Below are positions 37,223 through 43,080 of a stretch of DNA of 44,256 nt, one piece after another. The notes below the pieces were generated by a model, which saw nothing but the letters and a program-made list of their open reading frames with translations, was not told where the DNA came from and searched no databases. This DNA comes from a virus: positions 1-44,256 of IMG/VR virus record IMGVR_UViG_3300038678_000034; one strand, 5' to 3'. Every line of letters begins with the position of its first letter. The first letter of the stretch is position 1. The position numbers and the translations under genes are program-made.

Positions 37223-37251
37223 TTGACATCAAATTGCTAGAGAGATATACT
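37223..37251 (+). promoter_or_regulatory. Strong rightward sigma70 promoter
   Basis: TTGACA (37223-37228), 17-base spacer, TATACT (37246-37251): 6 of 6 and 5 of 6 consensus with ideal spacing. A second TTGACA lies at 37213-37218. Transcription would start near 37258. No gene begins for the next 1050 bases. Confidence 0.75.
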
Positions 37252-37257
37252 GAATAC

Positions 37258-37490
37258 TCTTCCTCTTTTATTTCTTTTTAGAAATTTTTCTCCTTCTGTT
37301 TCATATTATACTATTAGATACTATTTAGTAACACACTCCTTAGAGTGTTTAGATAAACTAATATATGTATATAAATAAATATTGCATTTAGCTAGAGTAT
37401 GTAATATAATTAGTTATATAAAGTTTAGTCATAGACCTTTAGTTATAACCTCGTATGTCCTCCTTGCCCTCTTAATGAGGGCTTTCTTTT
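37258..37490 (+). ncRNA. Candidate small RNA from promoter to terminator (about 230 nt)
   Basis: The span between the strong promoter (37223-37251) and the terminator (ending 37490) has no convincing reading frame. A hairpin ACACTC-CTTA-GAGTGT (37333-37348) lies in the middle. The arrangement predicts a discrete transcript of about 230 nt. It could instead be a leader whose terminator is overcome by antitermination. No known RNA family recognised. Confidence 0.4.
37466..37490 (+). terminator. Rho-independent terminator in the control region
   Basis: GCCCTC (37466-37471), loop TTAAT, GAGGGC (37477-37482), then TTTCTTTT. Functional on the plus strand only, because the minus strand has no T-run after the hairpin. 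Confidence 0.85.
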
Positions 37491-38927: not shown

Positions 38928-39115
38928 AATCACTACAATTCACTAACACTATTGGAGACATCTTTCCTTTACGTGTAATGGGTAAGGGTATTCCCGGCAC
39001 TGATAGCTTTCGTTGGCTCGTGGTGCATCCTGACATGACAGTGTTGGGAGTGTATCGCTACACCAAGAATGCTTTTGCATGCGCTCGTATGATTAAACGT
39101 TTAGGGGAATTGTAA
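38924..39115 (+). CDS. Small hypothetical protein (63 aa)
   Basis: Unrecognised. LQFTNTIGDIFPLRVMGKG, RWLVVHPDMTVLGVYRY then a helix (KNAFACARMIKRLGEL). Looks like a small beta-alpha protein. GGGGAGGG precedes the ATG. Coupled to neighbours by overlap. Confidence 0.65.
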   Translation: MKSLQFTNTIGDIFPLRVMGKGIPGTDSFRWLVVHPDMTVLGVYRYTKNAFACARMIKRLGEL

Positions 39116-39531
39116 TGAATGCATTAACACAAGGTAAGAAGTTCACTGTTATATGCAGTGCATACCAACACACTGCTGATAGCCTTACTAATATGCTAGC
39201 CACTGATGAGATGGCTAAGTATTTAACAGCTCATATATTTGTTGAGTATACCCGTGTTGTGGGTGTATACCGTGGTCAAGGTGAACAATCATTCGTTATT
39301 AATACCAACTCATCTAGTGCTATTAGTAACATCACACGTTACTGTCAACACATACATAATCAAGAGTGTGTGTTAGTGAGTAACAATCAAAGACATTCAA
39401 TCAAGCTGCACTTTGAGGATGGTAGCAAGGAAGAAATAGGGCATAACTTTGGGGTGCATGGTAGTAAACCATCAGCTAAAGTAGACTCATATACTGTGCT
39501 AAATGGCAATGAATATTACGTAGTTTATTAA
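39115..39531 (+). CDS. Hypothetical protein with EQSFVI...QECVLV segments (138 aa)
   Basis: The segment GVYRGQGEQSFVI, then a helix (AISNITRYCQHIHNQ), ECVLVSNNQRHSIKLHFEDG matches a recurrent arrangement in early proteins of unrelated phages (G-x-x-E-x-S-F ... QESVL ... DG). Its role there is not known to me. AGGGGA precedes the ATG. Confidence 0.7.
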   Translation: MNALTQGKKFTVICSAYQHTADSLTNMLATDEMAKYLTAHIFVEYTRVVGVYRGQGEQSFVINTNSSSAISNITRYCQHIHNQECVLVSNNQRHSIKLHFEDGSKEEIGHNFGVHGSKPSAKVDSYTVLNGNEYYVVY

Positions 39532-39544
39532 CAGGAGTAAACAG

Positions 39545-39569
39545 ATTATGAGTACATTTAAAGTAGGTA
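39545..39569. repeat. 25-bp direct repeat, copy 1 (start of a family A gene)
   Basis: Identical to 41777-41801: the ribosome-to-codon-8 region ATGAGTACATTTAAAGTAGG with two to four flanking bases. The gene at 42871 starts with nearly the same sequence. Evidence of recent duplication or recombination at family A starts. Confidence 0.85.
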
Positions 39570-39766
39570 GTAAAGTTACAATAGCATATGATAATTTGGA
39601 TGCTATCGGAATGGAGTGTGTCAAAGATGTAACACCAGACAAAGTATACACTTTAGTCGATGTTACCCCTAGTAATTGTCATCCCGGAGGTATGCGTATA
39701 GGTTTCATTGATGATACAGGAGATGAGGTAGGCTTACCTTGTGCTTATGTAACGTTAGTAAACTAA
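39548..39766 (+). CDS. Family A small beta protein (72 aa)
   Basis: Family A: TFKVGSKVTIAYDN, DVTPDKVYTLVDV, IGFIDDTGDEVGL and a final strand YVTLV. Paralogues at 40047 and 42871 and related starts at 41780 and 8024. Short-strand pattern with a conserved K-x-Y and D-D-x-G suggests an SH3-like fold (inference). AGGAG precedes the ATG. Function unknown. Confidence 0.75.
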   Translation: MSTFKVGSKVTIAYDNLDAIGMECVKDVTPDKVYTLVDVTPSNCHPGGMRIGFIDDTGDEVGLPCAYVTLVN

Positions 39767-40046: not shown

Positions 40047-40265
40047 ATGACAAATACATTCAAAGTAGGTGATTATATTACAGTTAATGCAGACGATGTT
40101 GTAAACAATCACTGTGCTAGAGATACCACTATAGGTAAGGCTTATAAATTAGAGGCAATTGATACTCCACAATGTAACGAGGCAGAGCCTCATGATGTAC
40201 AGTTTACCGATGATGTGGGGGATACAGTTATTTTGTTTCCAGAACACGTAACATTGGTATCTTAG
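40047..40265 (+). CDS. Family A small beta protein (72 aa)
   Basis: Family A member: TFKVGDYITVNADDV, ARDTTIGKAYKLEAIDT, VQFTDDVGDTVIL, and the end EHVTLVS. Compared with the 42871 member, it shares TVNA, CxRDxTxGKxYxL and the HVTLV end. AAGGA upstream. Function unknown. Confidence 0.75.
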   Translation: MTNTFKVGDYITVNADDVVNNHCARDTTIGKAYKLEAIDTPQCNEAEPHDVQFTDDVGDTVILFPEHVTLVS

Positions 40266-40327: not shown

Positions 40328-40816
40328 ATGGACAACATACACACACTACTATCTAATGGGCTGCCTAGTATTAATGGTAAGCTTAACGCTATTAACTGTG
40401 GGGGCTGTGGTTTATTTGCTCTTGAATTATCAAAGGCTCTTATGATGCATGATATTCCAGCTAGTATTGTGTTAGTAGAAGCTTGCTTCTATGATGAGGG
40501 TGACGTAGCTAATTTCATTAGTGGTGCTAGTGAGGAAAATATTAGTGATGCTTACCTTAAGCAAGGAGTTAATGGTAGTGACCCTTGCATTGGGCACATA
40601 TGTGTGGTTATTGATGGGGTGTTATATGATAGCAATGGACAGCACGAAAGACCTGCTATTAGTGAGTCCATAAGTCATGCAGCTATGGCACATATGTTAA
40701 CTCTACCTGAAGAATGGAATGATACATTCCTATGTAGTAATAACATGTCTACTGAGTGTATCGTTACTGTATTACAAGAATTCTTTACAACCATGTTATC
40801 ACCACTGAAAGGATAA
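40328..40816 (+). CDS. Cysteine-protease/transglutaminase-like protein (162 aa)
   Basis: INCGGCGLFALELSKAL places C24 (or C27) at the start of a helix, GHICVVIDGVLYDSNG provides H90 and D101: the Cys-His-Asp order of papain-like/transglutaminase-like enzymes. Between them is a helical and acidic region. It might cleave or deamidate a host protein early in infection, or be an inactive binder. AGGA precedes the ATG. No exact family known to me. Confidence 0.6.
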   Translation: MDNIHTLLSNGLPSINGKLNAINCGGCGLFALELSKALMMHDIPASIVLVEACFYDEGDVANFISGASEENISDAYLKQGVNGSDPCIGHICVVIDGVLYDSNGQHERPAISESISHAAMAHMLTLPEEWNDTFLCSNNMSTECIVTVLQEFFTTMLSPLKG

Positions 40817-41776: not shown

Positions 41777-41801
41777 ATTATGAGTACATTTAAAGTAGGT
41801 A
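41777..41801. repeat. 25-bp direct repeat, copy 2
   Basis: Identical to 39545-39569. It covers the start of the gene at 41780. Confidence 0.85.
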
Positions 41802-42043
41802 CTAAGTATGAGATGCTCATCCCAGTAGCTAAACAGTTAGCAGATAAGATGGGTTTAAAATTCACAGACAATGTAAACTATCAGTTTACATGTCATGGCA
41901 TTGCTAGTGGTATGTTATGGTCTAGAGATATTAGTTATCACCCACCGCAAGGTGTACCAGCTCCTCCACCTCCTCACCCAGTGTATGGGTCCCCCTTTGG
42001 TGACTACTGTAATGCATACATAAGGGAAGCTAGTGATAGCTAG
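41780..42043 (+). CDS. Family A-start protein with proline-rich middle (87 aa)
   Basis: Starts exactly like the family A gene at 39548 (STFKVGTK, DNA identical over 25 bases) but then diverges: a helix (VAKQLADKMGLKF), a strand (NVNYQFTCHG), and a Pro-rich stretch (PPQGVPAPPPPHPVYG). It looks like a chimera between a family A start and another sequence. It overlaps the primase gene start by 11 bases. Confidence 0.65.
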   Translation: MSTFKVGTKYEMLIPVAKQLADKMGLKFTDNVNYQFTCHGIASGMLWSRDISYHPPQGVPAPPPPHPVYGSPFGDYCNAYIREASDS

Positions 42044-42869
42044 TACTGTACAACAGAGCGTAAGAGAGCAGGCACTAGCTCTACCTGAAGGCTGCAGCAT
42101 TAGGGGTGTATGTCCTAAATGTGGTACTACATCAGCCTTCAGCATGACTCGTGCAGCAGGAGAGGTGAGATACATATGCTTCTCTGCCTCTTGTGGTTGT
42201 CGTGGTGTTATAACATCTAAGTCTACAAGAGATACATCCTTAGCACAAAATGTTATTAAGAATAGGAAGCTATTTGATAGTGACTTAACAGTGCTAGAGC
42301 CATGGGAAATTGACTGGCTTGCTAATAAATTTAACATACAAGAGCAGTGGCTTACTAGCTTACGCTACTGTGAAGAGGATAGAAGGGTGTACTGTCCTCA
42401 GTATGATGTAACAGGGAGGATACAAGGATACATAGCAAGGTACTATCCTGAGCTAGCAGGAGGGAGGAAACTGAAGGGGGCTAAGGCCCTATGGAAGGCA
42501 GTGCTACCAACAGATGTTGAGCTATGCTTCCCTGTAATGGAGGTGTTACTCCAAGTAGCAGACACTAAGCAACTGATAGTAGTAGAAGACTATATGTCTG
42601 CACTACGTATGAATTCACAGCTTGGTAAGCCTACGTGCTGCTTAGGAGGCACATCTATCTATGCTTCACATCTTAGTACTATGATAGCTTTAGGTGTAAA
42701 GGAACTAGTGATTGTGCTTGATGCTGATGCCACTACTAAGGCTGTCAAGCTTAAGCGTAGCCACTCCTTAACATTCAATAGAGTTATGATAGTACCACTG
42801 TTAGGGTACGATATAAAAGATATGTCAATCAGTGAGTTTGATAAGACATTCCAACAACTACGAGGTTAA
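42033..42869 (+). CDS. DNA primase (zinc finger plus TOPRIM)
   Basis: Makes primers for lagging-strand synthesis. 278 residues: zinc finger C27, C30, C49, C54/C56 (CPKCGTT...CFSASCGC), then RNA polymerase core with TOPRIM E185 (VVEDYMSA) and D230/D232 (VLDADATT). The start is GTG at 42033 with AAGGGA about 6 bases upstream; the next ATG would lose the zinc finger. In T7 this domain is fused to the helicase (gp4); here the helicase is the next but one gene, so the two are separate proteins. Confidence 0.9.
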   Translation: MIASTVQQSVREQALALPEGCSIRGVCPKCGTTSAFSMTRAAGEVRYICFSASCGCRGVITSKSTRDTSLAQNVIKNRKLFDSDLTVLEPWEIDWLANKFNIQEQWLTSLRYCEEDRRVYCPQYDVTGRIQGYIARYYPELAGGRKLKGAKALWKAVLPTDVELCFPVMEVLLQVADTKQLIVVEDYMSALRMNSQLGKPTCCLGGTSIYASHLSTMIALGVKELVIVLDADATTKAVKLKRSHSLTFNRVMIVPLLGYDIKDMSISEFDKTFQQLRG

Positions 42870-42870
42870 T

Positions 42871-43080
42871 ATGAATACATTTAAAGTAGGCAGTAGAGTT
42901 ACAGTGAATGCACCAGTAGATTTTGCATCAGCAATGTGTACAAGGGATGTCACTCAAGGTAAAGAGTACATTCTAACAGAAGTGGATACGGATGAAGCTA
43001 AGGATGATGTCGTATTTTATGATGATACAAACGAGCGGGTACTCCTTCGTAAAGAACATGTTACCTTAGTCGAAGGTTAG
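42871..43080 (+). CDS. Family A small beta protein (69 aa)
   Basis: Family A member: NTFKVGSRVTVNAPVDF, CTRDVTQGKEYILTEVDT, DDVVFYDDTNERVLL, and EHVTLVEG. The ATG at 42871 follows GAGG; the upstream open frame lacks a site. Located between primase and helicase. Nearest to the 40047 member. Function unknown. Confidence 0.75.
   Translation: MNTFKVGSRVTVNAPVDFASAMCTRDVTQGKEYILTEVDTDEAKDDVVFYDDTNERVLLRKEHVTLVEG

Follow-up and report, generated by a model that had tools for sequence, protein, structure and literature searches.

An open reading frame (ORF) at positions 40328–40816 on the plus strand of a 44.3-kb virus record is genuine and conserved, and its 162-aa product is probably a catalytic thiol protein of phages, putatively an early one. 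Hereafter, "the window" refers to the whole stretch of DNA analyzed (44,256 nucleotides). The best reading, which draws on predicted structures, is that the protein would be an accessory early thiol enzyme acting as a hydrolase or an acyl-transferase. More specifically, we consider the balance to lean slightly toward a small intracellular enzyme of papain/transglutaminase fold, located early in the genome of a VpV262-like podophage and directed at a host or defence protein; for this enzyme we infer the fold class, catalysis, early expression and host target. Observed directly were the conservation of the three candidate catalytic residues, their order and predicted secondary structure, the position of the gene and its patchy occurrence. 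Support is good for the enzyme class and for the chemistry suggested in the original prediction.

Genomic Context of the ORF

The window comes from a podophage, as judged by its large proteins. Its family-A DNA polymerase was closest to that of Vibrio phage VpV262 of the Zobellviridae (46% identity), and its head-closure/stabilization-type protein has relatives that include Vibrio phages listed as zobellvirids and SIO1-like phages. A terminase is also encoded. The structural genes run leftward from ~37 to 14 kb, and the replication genes run rightward from ~38 kb. The following genes are relevant to the locus.

39115–39531, plus strand: S-adenosylmethionine (SAM) lyase, upstream in the same cassette (PF23780, E 2.3e-20, 73.4 bits against a cut-off of 28)
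40328–40816, plus strand: thiol-enzyme ORF with an ATG start, 162 aa, a predicted papain/transglutaminase-like Cys-His-Asp enzyme (identified from the ORF, seven relatives and an AlphaFold2 model)
42033–42869, rightward: primase (PHROG 47)

The 40328–40816 ORF is the fourth after the SAM lyase. It belongs to a variable cassette ahead of both primase and helicase, with a group of small ORFs on one side of it and the primase gene on the other. The chance of a frame of this length at the base composition of the window is ~2e-5 per start. The original prediction had described this ORF with its NCGGCG (N23–G28), GHICV (G89–V93) and YDSNG (Y100–G104) motifs, and all of these details were exact. It had also assigned the gene to the early arm, which is correct as a map position given the location just ahead of the primase and helicase and near the SAM lyase. 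Here "early" is a statement of map position, and early expression is presumed. In Sphaerotilus phage vB_SnaP-R1, the corresponding gene is gp4 of 50 and likewise precedes the primase gene, gp14. Host-takeover and counter-defence genes usually occupy such early positions.

The PHROG match names the 39115–39531 product an SAM-dependent methyltransferase, a label that is probably a misnomer. The first SAM lyase to be discovered came from phage T3, where it counters restriction-modification, as outlined in PMC7877911. SAM lyase was detected in 7 of the 20 records tested, with 6 exceeding the cut-off. Among the contigs related to the window, G003 has the lyase gene directly upstream of the thiol-enzyme gene, and in G017 the lyase gene again precedes it, with other ORFs intervening. 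Because G009 has kept the lyase and carries other ORFs in the following stretch, the place after the SAM lyase appears to accept exchangeable cargo. One of these G009 ORFs (L023:3553–4134, minus strand, 193 aa) sits after the lyase where G003 has the thiol enzyme, and we regard it as another early accessory gene. The lyase was present in all three zobellvirus-type records having the thiol-enzyme gene and in one of the four long ones lacking it; we do not claim an association between the two genes since these records (3/3 vs 1/4) are too few.

Several additional features were observed in this part of the window. Small ORFs with an MSTFKVG-like start are scattered in the cassette on the plus strand (39548–39766, 40047–40265, 41780–42043 and 42868–43080), and four copies of a 34-nt direct repeat mark their 5' ends. 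For three of these small ORFs, ORFs of G003 and G009 could be aligned. These ORFs and repeats might be recombination points for cargo swapping. In the divergent region between the late and early genes, a near-consensus sigma-70-like promoter (11 of 12) is located at 37223–37251 on the plus strand, followed by a terminator-like hairpin at 37466–37482 on the same strand. The promoter-like site is a lead only, since the number of sigma-70-like sites in the 36.8–41.3 kb region was not above that in shuffled sequences (12 observed vs 18.6).

Relatives of the 162-aa Protein

Seven divergent relatives were gathered, all from phage or viral records: two window-related podophages (G003 and G017), Pseudoalteromonas phage PH357, vB_SnaP-R1 (gp4), a 635-kb megaphage and two IMG/VR contigs. 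The family members range from 137 to 178 aa, and their pairwise identity averages ~26%. When 50,697 phage records were searched by BLAST, PH357 alone was matched (26%, E 0.07), and its alignment with the window protein retains GGCG, His and Asp. A terminase search yielded 25 related contigs, and a two-row profile run on 24 of these 25 records detected the gene in two of the 24, namely G003 (E 1.2e-27) and G017 (E 1.6e-26). Among the six longest related records searched (18.8–44.6 kb), G003 and G017 have the gene and G009, G014, G016 and G019 lack it; it was also absent from five of six cultured phage records. The megaphage member (LR745206) was obtained by BLAST with the G003 protein (E 4e-3), the L044 member by alignment scanning, and the L048 member with a DNA pattern built on the C-terminal side, for which one of nine stretches was a member. 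The predicted structure of the window protein retrieved the 178-aa protein A0A6B9SZT1 of vB_SnaP-R1 (probability 1.00, TM 0.64), and a profile search of this phage independently led to gp4, likewise of 178 aa (E 5.3e-6).

The window protein and its seven relatives constitute the eight-row alignment A8. In a search of 3,559 ORFs (members included), the A8 profile gave 119–177 bits for the eight member loci and 12.1 bits for the best other ORF, the high member scores being partly circular as the profile was built from the same eight loci. Other searches yielded no relatives: none of 3 stretches from a single-protein scan of viral contigs was related, a two-row alignment scan gave 0/94 and a PH357-based scan 0/8, and tblastn found none in plasmids. 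PDB sequences gave chance rows only; apolipoprotein L1, for example, was matched at E 0.23 and an envelope glycoprotein of a virus at E 0.72. A DNA pattern containing TGT and a 148–178 base gap gave no member among 11 stretches, one of which was open but out of the motif frame. In bacterial genomes, 0/32 stretches found by alignment and 0/8 found by pattern were related, and 369 genomes of G028's class, in a run without a positive control, gave 0 relatives. The family was seen here in phage and viral records only, which is weak evidence for its absence elsewhere.

Conserved Residues and Predicted Structure

Twelve of the 162 positions are invariant in the eight rows (N23, G25, G26, C27, G28, L38, H90, D101, G104, W130, N131 and F134). 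The window protein has 22 Cys, His and Asp residues, and just one of each kind is invariant in 8/8 rows: C27 out of 7 Cys, H90 out of 6 His and D101 out of 9 Asp. Cys24 or Cys27, His90 and Asp101 had been proposed to occur in catalytic order; C27, H90 and D101 agree with this proposal, but C24 varies. Since the relatives have Glu, Tyr or Trp, as well as Cys, at the latter position, C24 was ruled out as the nucleophile and C27 is the candidate. The conserved elements are as follows.

40394–40411, plus strand: N23-C24-G25-G26-C27-G28 box (N23, G25, G26, C27 and G28 invariant in 8/8 rows; C24 varies)
40406–40408, plus strand: C27 codon, candidate nucleophile (invariant in 8/8; residue 1 of predicted helix 27–40)
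40595–40597, plus strand: H90 codon, candidate general base (invariant in 8/8; opens predicted strand 90–95)
40628–40630, plus strand: D101 codon, candidate third triad member in D-x-x-G104 (invariant in 8/8; closes predicted strand 98–101)
40715–40729, plus strand: W130-N131-x-x-F134, C-terminal signature of the family (invariant in 8/8 rows)

Because L044 and L048 were found with patterns containing conserved boxes, conservation was recounted without both. When the count was confined to the six rows obtained by means other than motif patterns, the invariant set was unchanged except that M1 was added, and W-N-x-x-F stayed invariant without the two rows found by W-N-containing patterns. The His-Asp spacing was H-x10-D in 6/6 rows measured and H-x14-D in vB_SnaP-R1 gp4. 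The distance from the GGCG box to His varied from 37 to 70 residues, which would fit the expectation for an insertion loop.

AlphaFold2 model 1, based on a three-row alignment, was poor (pLDDT 57.9), and model 2, based on a five-row alignment, was good over the core (pLDDT 78.1, pTM 0.78). In both models, C27 is the first residue of helix 27–40; in model 2, H90 is the first residue of strand 90–95 and D101 is the last residue of the next strand, 98–101. Structure prediction had been suggested as a check of the Cys-His-Asp arrangement, and the predicted placement, in which Cys opens a helix, His opens a strand and Asp ends the next one, agrees at the level of secondary structure with papain/transglutaminase-type enzymes. 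Model confidence was lowest in the variable loop before H90 (residues 53–87 in model 1 and 80–87 in model 2).

Model 2 matched four phage proteins at probability 1.00 in a viral structure library, including the 178-aa vB_SnaP-R1 protein. On the other hand, when solved structures in the PDB were searched by Foldseek, neither model 1 nor model 2 had a match at E ≤ 0.001; UCH-L3 ranked first for model 2 (E 0.48, TM 0.18). A second fold search with the poor model 1 returned four chains at Z ≥ 2, specifically 2hly (4.9), 3isr (3.2) and CtaG variants (2.6 and 2.2). The 3isr entry is titled putative cysteine protease and the 2hly row reads just "genomics APC5867"; the folds of 2hly and CtaG presumably resemble cysteine proteinase. 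The same search with model 2 returned one chain, the axonemal entry 9fqr (Z 3.3), and did not recover the papain-like rows of model 1. We do not claim a PDB fold match, given the low Z scores on a poor model and the disagreement of the model 2 search. Because the solved-structure matches were insignificant and the second searches were weak and discordant, the putative fold class is based on the order of the residues, their conservation and the predicted secondary structure. The original prediction is supported in part: its papain/transglutaminase-like assignment is retained as a likely one for the order of the triad and its predicted helix and strand placement, but not as a significant match to a solved structure.

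Proposed Function and Alternative Explanations

In the proposed mechanism, the nucleophile would be Cys27, which follows a Gly-Gly turn and opens a helix. It would be activated by His90, the first residue of a strand, and Asp101 on the adjacent strand would orient His90. A thio-acyl intermediate would be formed on an amide and then hydrolysed or transferred, resulting in cleavage, deamidation or transamidation, and the substrate site is probably shaped by the helix that carries the conserved W-N-x-x-F close to the C-terminus. The substrate would most likely be a host or defence protein and not a virion protein; we favour this assignment because the gene appears to be a swappable accessory one in an exchangeable early cassette near the SAM lyase. 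An extended form of this proposal, which we regard as improbable, is that the protein would be a stand-alone thiol enzyme of counter-defence whose target is a bacterial immune component, which it would cleave, deamidate or free of a covalent modifier. It would travel as interchangeable cargo beside an SAM lyase directed against SAM-dependent restriction, and podophages, larger phages and a megaphage would each have acquired it separately. No phage counter-defence enzyme of the cysteine-protease/papain kind was described in the titles and abstract openings of the literature searched.

The same conserved features could be read in other ways. It is rather unlikely, though worth weighing, that the protein is a degenerate, binding-only papain-like scaffold that grips a host or defence protein, with Cys, His and Asp retained for structural reasons or for metal binding. 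Binders are frequent among the small early proteins of phages, the libraries of solved folds gave no confident enzyme match, and a metal could be ligated by one conserved residue each of Cys, His and Asp. However, binding-only scaffolds usually lose their catalytic residues, whereas here just one Cys, one His and one Asp survive a mean identity of ~26%, and they do so at what the model predicts to be the catalytic places of the fold. We consider it unlikely that the same fold serves an enzyme of peptidoglycan or small molecules (NlpC/P60-, CHAP- or arylamine N-acetyltransferase (NAT)-like) in entry, lysis or metabolism. The order of G-G-x-C box, His and Asp is also that of NAT. Among the papain-like proteins of phages, many are peptidoglycan hydrolases of the NlpC/P60 or CHAP kind, as outlined in PMC7824862 and PMC10318531. 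Nevertheless, Pfam scans taken to E 10 for the window protein and to E 1 for 7 members showed no NlpC/P60, CHAP or NAT family, the gene lies in the early arm with the structural genes on the opposite strand, and no hydrophobic N-terminal stretch was visible in the 162-aa sequence by eye.

Processing of the phage's own early or virion proteins by a peptidase is a further explanation, which would be in line with virion maturation being common among phage peptidases, as sketched in PMC7824862. We judge it very unlikely, as the gene is not next to the head genes and is dispensable for a similar virion, being missing from four of the six longest related records and five of the six cultured phage records. 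Returning to the accessory early thiol enzyme, if it is catalytic, it would represent a compact family (137–178 aa) of early phage thiol enzymes across very different phages. A cultured member, vB_SnaP-R1 gp4 with the host Sphaerotilus natans, would then be at hand for seeking host targets, and C27A would be a clear mutant.

Comparison with Known Families

No family profile reached its own cut-off for the members scanned. Transglut_core (PF01841) matched PH357 alone (E 0.088, 13.5 bits against a cut-off of 23), i.e., one of seven members scanned up to E 1. None of the eight members was convincingly matched by PADLOC defence families, the sole row, for the G003 protein, covering 26 residues of a profile 438 long at E 0.011. 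The window protein resembles the papain-like/transglutaminase superfamily (clan CA type) in the Cys-His-Asp order and, according to the model, in having Cys at a helix N-terminus, His at the opening of a strand and Asp at the end of the next; it differs in having no significant match to a solved member, by sequence or by Foldseek. The closest comparison is with vB_SnaP-R1 gp4 (QHJ75333.1) and PH357 APC44492.1, both annotated merely as hypothetical proteins, which belong to the same family and share GGCG, His, Asp and W-N-x-x-F. Their identity to the window protein is ~23–26% within the aligned region, and gp4 differs further in that 14 residues separate its His from Asp.

PF24591 (Phage YunG-like) was the sole recurring Pfam family. 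Six of the eight members matched it, all below the curated cut-off of 27 bits; the best score in the family was 24.3 bits (E 2.8e-5), the window protein scored 14.7 bits, and L044 and vB_SnaP-R1 gp4 gave no match. The earlier statement that no established family was recognised holds insofar as no profile exceeded its cut-off, but PF24591 is a known, if distant, family and partly fills this gap. Two proteins above the PF24591 cut-off (L064 and L066), one encoded in a Lachnospiraceae genome and one in a second genome of the same order, have G-G-C at the nucleophile, H-x10-D and D-x-x-G, as in the present family. In contrast, the Cys-His gap is 23 in L066 (positions 46 and 70) as compared with 37–70 between GGCG and His here, both proteins have Tyr where the present family has G28, and the C-terminal W-N-x-x-F was not seen in either. 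When hhalign was run against PF24591 proteins, the Cys box alone was aligned (16 columns, probability 21%), and the reverse search of the two true PF24591 proteins with the A8 profile gave E 0.18 and 0.43. Judged by these profile scores, the present family is formally outside PF24591, and we read the two as having a distant common origin, with the present family as a putative separate branch marked by GGCG and W-N-x-x-F.
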